A stretch of DNA of 64,000 bases from Rhodoplanes serenus. Its GTDB lineage: Bacteria; Pseudomonadota; Alphaproteobacteria; Rhizobiales; Xanthobacteraceae. The notes beneath the pieces were generated by a model. The model saw nothing but the letters and a program-made list of their open reading frames with translations. It ran no database searches and was not told the DNA's origin. The translations under genes were made by a program, and so were the position numbers. Below, piece by piece: positions 6,156 to 63,117 of the stretch. The stretch lies in the NCBI GenBank assembly GCA_009720755.1, contig WNKV01000004.1, positions 62,001 through 126,000 of the forward strand, in the 5' to 3' direction. The stretch's first letter is position 1. Every line of letters starts with the position of its first letter.

Positions 6156-6274
6156 CGCACGCTAGCCAGAATGCTGGCGCGCCGCAACCAACCCGAGGCG
6201 CCTAGGGTGGAGCAGCAGGGTGCCGCGCCCCGGAACGATGACGAACGGATTACCCGGAACCACTTCCATACCGT

Positions 6275-6417
6275 GGCCGCTGATGCTGACTCGTCATGCC
6301 CGGCCTTCGTGCCGGGCATCCACGACGTCAAGCCGAGCATCAGCAAAGACGTGGATGGCCGGGACAAAGCCCGGCCATGACGGAGGATGCAGTCCGAGAG
6401 GTCTGCCGTTGGTATCA
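6275..6417 (-). repeat. About 141-bp interspersed repeat, family B, copy 1
   Basis: On the minus strand this begins TGATACCAACGGCAG. It then holds two hairpins built on CATGGCCGGG/CCCGGCCATC and GGATGCCCGGC/GCCGGGCATGAC, separated by a short spacer. It matches 51825-51965 in opposite window orientation with only scattered changes. The TGA at its left end is the stop codon of the L,D-transpeptidase gene. The GC-rich hairpins could end or slow transcription, and the sequence resembles a repeat common in Bradyrhizobium-like genomes. Confidence 0.85.
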
Positions 6418-51827: not shown

Positions 51828-51965
51828 TACCAACGGCAGGACTCTCGGACTGTATCCTCCGTCATGGCCGGGCTTGTCCCGGCCATCCACGTCTTTGTTG
51901 CTGTCGGCCTAACGTCGTGGATGCCCGGCACAAAGGCCGGGCATGACGACTCAGCATCAGCGGCC
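51825..51965 (+). repeat. About 141-bp interspersed repeat, family B, copy 2
   Basis: This copy starts TGATACCAACGGCAG at the secB stop codon and holds the same two GC-rich hairpins as 6275-6417. The similarity ends near CAGCATCAGCGGCC. In both copies the gene upstream ends exactly at the repeat's first triplet. Confidence 0.85.
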
Positions 51966-54107: not shown

Positions 54108-54947
54108 TCAGCGGCCCTCCGGCTGACGGCGCCGCTCGGCCAGCAGCGCCAGCACGGCGGCGGCGGTCTCCTCGATGGAACGGCGCGTCACGTCGATCAG
54201 CGGCCAGCCGCGGCGGGCACACAGGCGGCGCGAGTAGGCGATTTCCTCGGTCACCGCCTCGCGGTCGATGTACTGGTCGTCCTCGTTGTGGGCCTTGAGC
54301 CCGAGCAGACGGTTCTGGCGGATGGCCACGATGCGCTCCGGGCTGGCGAACAGGCCGACCACCAGAGGCTTCTGGAGGGTCTCCAGGGCGGGCGGCGGCG
54401 GCACGCCGGGAACCAGCGGGATGTTGGCGGTCTTGACGCCGCGGTTGGCGAGATAGATCGAGGTCGGGGTCTTGGACGTGCGGGAGACGCCGACCAGCAC
54501 CACGTCGGCGCGCTCGAGATCGTCGGCGAGCTGTCCGTCGTCGTGCATCATGGTGTAGTTCAGGGCGTCGATCCGCTTGAAGTACTCGGCATTGAGGACG
54601 TGCTGGGCGCCGACCTTGGGGGTCGATTCGTGGCCGAGATGGGATTCGAACAGGCGCAGCACCGGGCCGAGGATCGACAGGCAGGGCAGGCCGAGATCAC
54701 GGCAGGTGGTTTCCAGCCTCTCGATCAACGCCTCGTCGAGCAGGGTGTAGAGCACCACCCCGGGCTCCTGCTCGATCTCGGCCAGCACATGATCGAGCTG
54801 CTTGGCGGTGCGCACCGCCGGATAGACGTGCTCGACCGCCGAGACCTGGGTGTACTGCGCGGTGGCGGCCCGGGCGACCGTGATGAGGGTTTCGCCGGTC
54901 GAGTCGGAGACGAGATGCAGGTGGAAGAAGCTGGTCGGTTTCGTCAT
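54108..54947 (-). CDS. Pyruvate, phosphate/water dikinase regulatory protein (bifunctional kinase/pyrophosphorylase)
   Basis: The 279-residue DUF299 protein switches a dikinase off by ADP-dependent phosphorylation and on by phosphate-dependent dephosphorylation. It has the opening [13 protein letters not shown], the MMHDDGQ segment and the P-loop [18 protein letters not shown] (about 155-172), followed by IPLVPG and RQNRL. It is the first gene of the operon to maf, coaE and dnaQ and flanks the proposed origin, opposite hemE, as in other alphaproteobacteria. Confidence 0.93.
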
Positions 54948-55411
54948 CGGCCCCACGGAATCGCGCCCCCCGGAATTGTGCCGCCGAAATCGTGCTGCCG
55001 GAATCATGTCCCAGTATCGGGTCCTCCCAGTCACGCCCCGCTGCTTCACGCTCTGAGGACAGCTGTGGACGGCTGGGGAGAACACCGCGCGGGCGCCGCC
55101 TCCGCGGGACGGGCCGGTGGTCCCGCGGCACCCCGGATCACAAATTCACAGGACGGGACGACGAGTCGAGGATTTATACTCCTTCATTGTGAAGAGCGGC
55201 AATGGTATCAGGCGGGCCGAGCAGGGCGGTCACCAACCGCTGCGGCACAGGCGGTCGCAGTGCAGTCGACAGGATCGCTCGACACACAGGACGGTGGACC
55301 ATGCTGTGGATGACGTTGCGGCTGGTGTGGACGGGGGAGTCGTGAGTCTTTTCCCGCCCCCAATAGACTCAACAATGAAGATTCTCTTAATCTTTTGATT
55401 TGATAGAGCCG
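54948..55411. other. oriC: Probable chromosomal replication origin (oriC)
   Basis: This 464-base non-coding gap lies between the dikinase regulator and hemE, the known origin position in Caulobacter and relatives. It holds TGTGGATGA (55305-55313; one mismatch to the DnaA box complement) and TGTGGACGG twice (55064-55072, 55326-55334), all in one orientation. An AT-rich tract at 55377-55407 abuts hemE and could be the unwinding element. Genes leave it in both directions, and parS is about 8 kb away. The boxes apart from the first are weak matches. Confidence 0.7.
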
Positions 55412-56467
55412 ATGAACAATCCTGCTGTCTCTCCGAACACTCCCACCCGTGCGGTCCTCGACGTCCTCGCCGGCAAGCGGCAGGCGACACCGCCGGTCTG
55501 GATGATGCGTCAGGCCGGACGCTACCTCCCCGAGTACCGCGCCACCCGCGAGCAGGCCGGCAGCTTCCTCGACCTGTGCTTCAATCCAAAGCTCGCCGCC
55601 GAGGTTACGTTCCAGCCGATCCGTCGGTTCGGCTTCGATGCCGCGATCCTGTTCTCCGACATCCTGGTGGTGCCGCACGCCCTCGGCCAGACGGTGAGCT
55701 TCGCGGCCGGCGAAGGGCCGCGCCTCGCACCGCGGGTCGACCGGGACAATGTCGGCCGGTTCTCCGGCAGCTTCGACCAGGCGAAGCTCGCGGCGGTGTT
55801 CGAGGCGGTGCGGCTGATCCGGGCCGGGCTGCCGGCGGAGACGACGTTCCTCGGCTTCTGCGGGGCGCCGTGGACGGTGGCGACCTACATGGTGGCGGGG
55901 GAAGGAACCTCGGACCAGGGGCCGGCGCGCTCGTTGGCCTATCGTGATCCGGAGACTATGCAGCGGCTGATCGATGGGCTGGTCGATGCGTCGATCGCCT
56001 ATCTGATCGAGCAGTTCCGGGCGGGGGTGGACGCCGTGCAGGTGTTCGACACCTGGGCCGGCATCCTGCCGCCGGCGGAGTTCGACCGCTGGGTGATCGC
56101 CCCGACGGCGCGCATCGTCGCCGGCGTGCGGGCCGCGGTGCCGGATGCCAAGATCATCGCCTTTCCGCGTGGAGCCGGAACGCAACTCGAGCGTTTCATC
56201 GACAAGGTGCCGGTGAACGCCGTGGGGCTCGACTGGACGATGGATCTCACCTTCGCGCGCGAGCGAATCCAGAGCCGGGTGGCCGTGCAGGGCAATCTCG
56301 ACCCGCTGCTGCTGGTGGCCGGTGGCGACGCGCTCGACCGCGGCGTCGACGCCGTCATGGAAGCGTTCCGCGACGGTCCGTTCATCTTCAACCTCGGCCA
56401 CGGCATCACGCCGGAGGCGCCGATTGCCAATGTGGAGCGCATGCTGGCGCGGGTCAGGGGCGGTTGA
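55412..56467 (+). CDS. hemE: Uroporphyrinogen decarboxylase
   Basis: HemE removes four carboxyl groups from uroporphyrinogen III to give coproporphyrinogen in heme and bacteriochlorophyll synthesis. The 351-residue protein has the signatures [17 protein letters not shown] and [12 protein letters not shown] with the catalytic Asp, [21 protein letters not shown] and [11 protein letters not shown]. The ATG at 55412 follows the AT-rich tract of the origin; a TTG four codons earlier is possible. It overlaps the hemJ start. Confidence 0.96.
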
Positions 56468-63101: not shown

Positions 63102-63117
63102 TGTTTCATGTGAAACA
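63102..63117. other. parS: parS centromere site
   Basis: The 16-base palindrome TGTTTCATGTGAAACA differs from the ParB consensus TGTTTCACGTGAAACA by one central base. It lies between mnmE and mnmG, near where alphaproteobacterial parS sites and the parAB genes are usually found. ParB bound here would organise and segregate the origin region. Confidence 0.88.

Follow-up and report, generated by a model that had tools for sequence, protein, structure and literature searches.

In many bacteria outside the Alphaproteobacteria, the chromosomal origin of replication lies beside dnaA. The boundary genes of the Caulobacter origin are described as COG1806 and hemE (PMC1914354), and the same source supplies the criteria that we used for membership of the hemE/COG1806 type of alphaproteobacterial oriC: flanking genes that are homologues of those in close relatives (a), an intergenic length of 200-1000 bp (b), protein-binding sites, mainly for DnaA and IHF (c), in greater number than in other intergenic regions (d), raised AT content (e), raised similarity to relatives (f), and a shift in GC skew (g). 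The Caulobacter origin is reported to contain GANTC motifs (PMC3973325), and TCCCCA is given as the consensus of the Caulobacter W-box (PMC4285127). A review presents CcrM in Caulobacter as dispensable for initiation, yet essential for normal chromosomal replication (PMC6090056). As for CtrA, a second review states that CtrA sites in origins are unseen beyond Caulobacter and possibly Rickettsia (PMC4468827). The Sinorhizobium meliloti origin is reported to have no CtrA motif and to be unbound by CtrA (PMC4433202), and the Brucella abortus origin is likewise reported as not bound (PMC2877005). A later report describes CtrA binding beside the Hyphomonas origin (PMC7200025), and CtrA sites have been predicted in the origins of Ehrlichia, Anaplasma, and Wolbachia (PMC1914354). 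For the order studied here, our searches of the open-licence literature found no paper that deals with CtrA sites in the origin.

We analysed a 64,000-nucleotide stretch of Rhodoplanes serenus DNA (the window; G000:C44:62001-126000), which is part of the 336,041-base contig C44 in a 5.5-Mb draft genome of 51 contigs. hemE similarity, which reaches 65% to Bradyrhizobium and relatives, is the basis on which we assign the organism's order and family. Its sequence content and comparison with relatives indicate that the gap between the PPSR gene and hemE, at 54948-55411, is very probably the chromosomal oriC, one of the hemE/COG1806 type, as in Caulobacter. An origin is thereby placed within a draft genome.

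Flanking genes and composition of the gap

The candidate oriC is a 464-bp gap between divergent genes (criterion b), with 62.5% GC compared with 71.25% for the contig. To its left, the gene for PPSR (pyruvate, phosphate dikinase regulator; COG1806/DUF299) occupies 54108-54947 on the minus strand, with its start at 54947; scanned as the longer frame 54108-55085, it matches NF003742 at 343.8 bits (cut-off 225). To its right, hemE occupies 55412-56467 on the plus strand, with its start at 55412, and matches TIGR01464 at 392.6 bits (cut-off 302.95). Both boundary genes are homologous to those of close relatives (criterion a), and both point outward from the gap, as a first-pass annotation made from the letters alone had described. 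The gap is 37.5% AT against 28.75% for contig C44, the contig rather than a genome-wide value being the comparison here (criterion e). The AT-rich tract that the annotation had seen directly before hemE, and that we propose as the unwinding element, spans 55372-55411 and is 67.5% AT. This value is reached in 58 of the 336,002 40-base windows on the contig, which fall into just five distinct places, the tract included.

DnaA-box-like sites

The boxes named in the first-pass annotation are all present. TGTGGATGA lies at 55305-55313, its complement TCATCCACA matching TTATCCACA at 8/9 positions, and two TGTGGACGG sites at 55064-55072 and 55326-55334 share its orientation. Among the five same-genus genomes, the minus-strand box TCATCCACA at 55305-55313 is the least secure, with its TGTGGA core kept in four and broken in G004, whereas TGTGGAC of the minus-strand box CCGTCCACA at 55326-55334 is present in all five. 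Beyond these sites, TTCACA cores occur at 55145 and, in complement, at 55188.

Counted by the six-base core TYCACA, which was picked post hoc after the gap had been inspected, the gap holds five sites against 0.16 expected, the maximum of the 336-kb contig. Together with one IHF-consensus site, these are the binding sites that the gap carries under criterion c. The gap also holds more sites than any other intergenic region on this contig (criterion d), while a cluster on contig C22 is denser. The core recurs in relatives. We collected 102 gaps, G017 included and L222 (G034) dropped as it has no upstream sequence, and kept 95 after removing near-duplicates; these contain 314 TYCACA cores, against a mean of 40 and a highest value of 54 in 200 shuffles. 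In a motif-free count over 88 gaps, the most enriched 7-mers include CTGTGGA, GTCCACA, and ATCCACA, as well as AGACTCT, TCTAAGA, and AAGATTC.

Other patterns gave no signal. For the enteric consensus TTWTNCACA with up to one mismatch, the window has 6 matches against 7.76 expected and hence no excess, and the gap contains no exact copy of TTATNCACA, the DnaA consensus of PMC1914354. TGTGGA cores paired 3-33 bases apart occur at 11 places in the whole genome, compared with 18 for the reversed control pattern.

GANTC, CtrA, and IHF sites

Seven GANTC (CcrM) sites lie in the gap, where 0.69 are expected; this too is the contig maximum. Four of them, at 55337, 55344, 55366, and 55380, fall within 60 bp, an arrangement found nowhere else on the contig. 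The last overlaps a degenerate plus-strand CtrA site, TGAA-N7-TTAA at 55376-55390 with GATTC inside it, which is the sole TGAA-N7-TTAA on the contig. At the aligned place, G003 and G004 carry a perfect TTAA-N7-TTAA, and the first half is TGAA in the other three same-genus genomes. The intact motif is absent from the whole of contig C44, and with no intact site in the gap we do not class it as a CtrA-gated origin, the subtype of Caulobacter Cori. An IHF-consensus site, TAATCTTTTGATT, lies at 55388-55400 on the plus strand and matches YAANNNNTTGATW, which we take to be the IHF consensus; it is one of four on the 336-kb contig. The first-pass annotation does not contain the GANTC cluster, the IHF-consensus site, the CtrA-like site, or the second of two parS copies (see below).

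The genome encodes DnaA, CtrA (C12:60915; 424.4 bits, cut-off 350), GcrA-family proteins, and a CcrM-like protein with a RAMA domain, which we take as the mark of CcrM. Four proteins score above the GcrA family cut-off, on G000:C2, C16, C24, and C25 (189.7, 131.9, 44.8, and 45.9 bits); one would be expected, and some copies may be phage-borne or duplicated. Two short proteins, at G000:C16:22156-22425 and C51:25616-25882, match the DnaA model only over its final ~90 positions, which form the DNA-binding domain.

Conservation within the genus

We aligned the gap through five same-genus genomes (G000-G004); a sixth, G005, which is 58% complete, gave no match. Over the whole gap, 177 of 464 columns (38%) are invariant. 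Invariance is raised in five blocks, where it reaches 65-79% of columns, compared with 42% at hemE third codon positions, our control. The raised similarity to relatives asked for by criterion f is thus confined to these blocks and does not extend to the gap overall.

Block 1 (55062-55085, minus strand; 18/24 columns invariant) joins a DnaA-like box CCGTCCACA (55064-55072, complement) to an adjoining TCCCCA (55074-55079, complement). Block 2 (55138-55159, plus strand; 16/22) holds a DnaA-like box AAATTCACA at 55142-55150; of the four same-genus relatives, three have ATATTCACA there and one has ATGTTCACA. Block 3 (55168-55213; 35/46) includes a TTCACA core in complement (55188-55193) and an invariant GGCAATGGTATCA; none of the other motifs that we tested matched there. 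In block 4 (55287-55303; 11/17), GGTGGA at 55293-55298 is a box-like core with one mismatch, and ACGGTGGA is present in all five genomes. Block 5 (55336-55398; 50/63) contains the four clustered GANTC sites and extends into the AT-rich tract. Its first three GANTC sites are kept in all five genomes, the single difference in G001 falling on the free base N.

Skew, strand-biased motifs, and parS

On contig C44, the excess of G over C per kb changes from -2.74 left of the gap to +10.58 right of it (block-permutation p 0.005). The turn is diffuse: the cumulative minimum lies at 87.5 kb of the contig and the best single break at 108 kb, with the gap at 117 kb, so that the skew shift named in criterion g is found within about 10-30 kb of the gap. 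Skew was drawn per contig, as 51 contigs preclude a whole-chromosome curve. Counts of GGGNAGGG, which we take to be the KOPS motif, are 7:7 to the left and 19:6 to the right (p 0.098), a bias that is only suggestive.

A parS site about 8 kb away had been noted before, and it is borne out: parS TGTTTCATGTGAAACA lies at 63102-63117 on the plus strand, 7.7 kb from the gap. A second, identical copy lies just beyond the window end (G000:C44:127086), 9.7 kb from the gap. Allowing up to one mismatch to TGTTTCAYGTGAAACA, taken here as the parS consensus, these are the only two parS sites in 5.5 Mb, both on C44 at 125.1 and 127.1 kb.

For three relatives assembled as single contigs, we sampled 20 stretches of 20 kb each and asked which origin position best fits the orientation of KOPS-like motifs. 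In G031, the best fit is 720-780 kb with the gap at 784 kb (27/33 motifs agreeing at best, 26/33 at the gap), and in G054 it is 3.78-3.82 Mb with the gap at 3.77 Mb (106/124 and 104/124). The strand-bias motifs of both genomes thus put the origin at most about 65 kb from the gap, which sits just off the best fit. In G028, from whose gap hemE has departed to 7.09 Mb, the best fit is 720-960 kb (32/39 motifs), a range that includes both PPSR at 957 kb and dnaA at 738 kb.

Relatives in which hemE and PPSR are separated

Among hemE upstream stretches from 108 of 109 loci (L089, with only 110 bp upstream, was dropped), at least two GANTC and at least two TYCACA sites occur together in 69 of 76 that are linked to a divergent PPSR beside them, compared with 6 of 32 that have no PPSR in the locus (Mann-Whitney p 6e-12, uncorrected for relatedness). 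Seven of the 76 linked gaps are without this double signal, and four of those have no TYCACA core at all. Upstream of PPSR genes that have no hemE within about 1.5 kb, a GANTC/TYCACA cluster is present in 11/11; this set was reduced from 12 when G017, whose record begins inside hemE, was moved to the linked cases. The contrast holds within genomes: for eight of these 11, the hemE stretch of the same genome was also compared, and the cluster is found at PPSR in 8/8 pairs and at hemE in 0/8. PPSR itself was searched for in 28 genomes and matched in 27, with no match in the whole genome of G040; there (L128), hemE still has the origin-like motif cluster upstream of it. Since the cluster stays with PPSR in the eight pairs and with hemE in G040, it marks a place and neither gene. 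The relatives show an origin tied to that place rather than to hemE.

hemE has gone from the origin in L213, L218, L219, and other relatives (G029, G028, G030). In L218 and L219, the gap is followed by an open frame that looks like hemJ, which would fit the removal of hemE by itself.

Alternative explanations

The gap might be merely the divergent promoter region of PPSR and hemE under CcrM, GcrA, and CtrA, with the true origin some tens of kb off. Cell-cycle promoters typically carry GANTC and CtrA sites, and the skew break and minimum do lie about 9 and 30 kb left of the gap. DnaA-box cores, however, need not cluster at a promoter, yet they number 314 in the 95 gaps against 40 in shuffled ones, and the cluster neither follows a departed hemE (8/8) nor is lost from hemE in G040, which has no PPSR match. 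We consider this explanation very improbable and reject a plain promoter region as the sole explanation, since the cluster belongs to the place and not to hemE or PPSR. An origin adjoining dnaA would follow the general rule outside this class, but the dnaA contig C6 shows positive skew in 13/16 10-kb bins and KOPS-like motifs at 19 to 0 with no turn; the one-sided skew and motifs therefore put dnaA inside a replication arm. TYCACA is absent from C6:63600-64800, upstream of the dnaA match, and dnaA lies 512 kb (G031) and 729 kb (G054) from the gap, outside the best-fit region, although inside it in G028. With no turn of skew or motif on C6, an origin at dnaA was rejected as having almost no chance of being right.

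The denser cluster on contig C22 (G000:C22:404466-404872) has eight TYCACA cores, all in one direction, and its boxes are more numerous and better than those of the gap, two of them being TTGTCCACA. Its surroundings speak against an origin: skew is positive in 12/13 sampled stretches, KOPS-like motifs stand at 37 to 2 with no turn, the contig has no parS, and GANTC sites are not clustered, numbering 3 in 1.4 kb. On these grounds an origin at C22 was rejected, its likelihood being negligible; the cluster is a candidate DnaA-titrating site, which is likelier than an origin. The reading of the PPSR-hemE gap as oriC is helped by the rejection of both the dnaA contig and the C22 cluster, and by a cluster in relatives that stays unmoved when hemE leaves. 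These add to the flanking genes, the density of boxes and GANTC sites, conservation, the skew turn, and the clustering of parS, all of which favour the origin that the first-pass annotation had proposed between PPSR and hemE.

Within the C22 cluster (L242:4466-4872), we counted nine DnaA-box-like sites in a single orientation, eight TYCACA and one TGCACA; it sits between prmA-like and PaaX-like genes, names given by eye from the translations. The C22 query partly consists of dispersed repeat sequence, which confounds the conservation of the C22 boxes. In the window, a dispersed repeat of ~140 bp with the look of an inverted repeat, GTCATGGCCGGG..., has two copies, at 6270-6414 and 51828-51965. 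A query holding the dispersed repeat gave, at E ≤1, at least 51 matches in this genome, at least 58-59 in three same-genus genomes, and at least 12 in two others.

DnaA binding preference

The boxes of the gap depart from the enteric consensus, and it had been suggested that DnaA of this lineage may prefer other sequences. This suggestion was not supported. The genus and most of the family members compared do not vary in the stretches of DnaA domain IV that presumably touch DNA (the RPRQ and RDHTT regions): SSRRTANVVRPRQ and GGRDHTTVLHA are identical in the five same-genus genomes and in 8/9 other family members compared. The DnaA of G017 reads SQRRTANVVKPRQ, with SQRR and KPRQ replacing SSRR and RPRQ. 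The annotation had also called for a comparison of boxes with related genomes. We ran it and found GTCCACA and ATCCACA about equally often in the relatives' gaps (90 and 91, G054 being counted twice); within the genus, GTCCACA occurs 13 times and ATCCACA once. Boxes with G at the third position are described from Streptomyces, Mycobacterium, and the like, in which GC is high (PMC4285127). Changed DnaA specificity was thus rejected on the unchanged contact stretches and on the parity of GTCCACA and ATCCACA in relatives, and a special preference would not be needed to account for these boxes.

CtrA sites in the gaps of relatives

GANTC occurs 425 times in the 95 gaps, against a mean of 168 and a highest value of 209 in 200 shuffles, and seven further five-base patterns built in the same way have counts of 74-231; the enrichment is judged by the shuffles, the pattern counts having no background of their own. 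TTAA-N7-TTAA is present in 22 of the 95 gaps (shuffle mean 0.8, highest 3), while TTAA pairs at every other spacing from 0 to 20 are found in 0 to 4 gaps each. The sequence around the gaps, 1.29 Mb in all, has 11 occurrences of the N7 motif, or 0.004 per 510 bases. N7 is the commonest TTAA spacing there too (0 to 5 occurrences for the others), a pattern that CtrA-regulated promoters would give.

Linked gaps with TTAA-N7-TTAA come from Cohaesibacter, Pleomorphomonas, Enterovirga, Bartonella apis, Stappia, one Nitratireductor assembly, and two further assemblies. The motif is also present in 6 of the 32 hemE upstreams without PPSR, an Aurantimonas and a Rhizobiaceae assembly included. None was found in Mesorhizobium, Ochrobactrum, Shinella, Sphingomonas-type, or Rhizobium-titled gaps; this absence fits the reports on S. 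meliloti (PMC4433202) and Brucella abortus (PMC2877005). The presence of the motif in relatives goes beyond the review statement cited above (PMC4468827).

It is quite possible, though we put the chance slightly below even, that CtrA control of the origin is not restricted to Caulobacter, with many lineages of this order having genuine sites and others having lost them. The genus of the window would then be in the midst of losing its site, which is intact in two of five species and damaged in three, with an overlapping CcrM site in four. For Rhodoplanes itself, the perfect site in 2/5 same-genus genomes and the damaged copy in the window suggest that CtrA may once have gated the origin. Through the spacing signal, species can be picked for testing whether CtrA controls initiation directly.

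A model for initiation, and comparison with known origins

By analogy with known origins, the left and middle parts of the gap would offer DnaA several weak boxes, from which it would assemble toward the AT-rich tract; blocks 1, 2, and 4, plus the boxes at 55305 and 55326, are candidate seeding sites. The AT-rich tract beside hemE would open and the helicase would load there, with IHF presumably aiding the opening by bending DNA at its predicted site in the tract. After passage of the fork, the GANTC cluster would stay hemimethylated until late in the cycle, when CcrM acts; it could in this way mark a newly fired origin. This marking step is the least certain because CcrM, according to the review cited above (PMC6090056), is not required for initiation, yet is essential for normal replication. 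Movement of the new origin to the pole would follow, driven by ParB at the two parS sites.

This type of oriC is already known, and the Rhodoplanes gap is a further example, placed as in Caulobacter. Similar to the gap, Caulobacter crescentus Cori is described as lying between hemE and COG1806, spanning about 400 bp, and containing weak non-consensus DnaA boxes, TCCCCA (the W-box), an IHF site, GANTC sites, and an AT-rich stretch (PMC1914354, PMC4285127, PMC4468827, PMC3973325). The two differ in that Cori is reported to have five CtrA sites, compared with one damaged site in the Rhodoplanes gap, and moderate-affinity boxes TGATCCACA, where the gap has boxes of the CCGTCCACA, TCATCCACA, and TTCACA types. 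The origin of S. meliloti, a bacterium that we take to belong to the same order, resembles the gap in having no intact CtrA site; it is reported as unbound by CtrA (PMC4433202), whereas the genus Rhodoplanes has intact CtrA sites in 2/5 genomes. In Wolbachia, Ehrlichia, and Anaplasma, where hemE is paired with COG1253, one boundary gene has likewise been exchanged while the origin stayed (PMC1914354). The predicted Wolbachia origin lies beside hemE and not COG1806 (PMC1914354), whereas in the eight paired relatives examined here it is the PPSR side, not hemE, that keeps the cluster.
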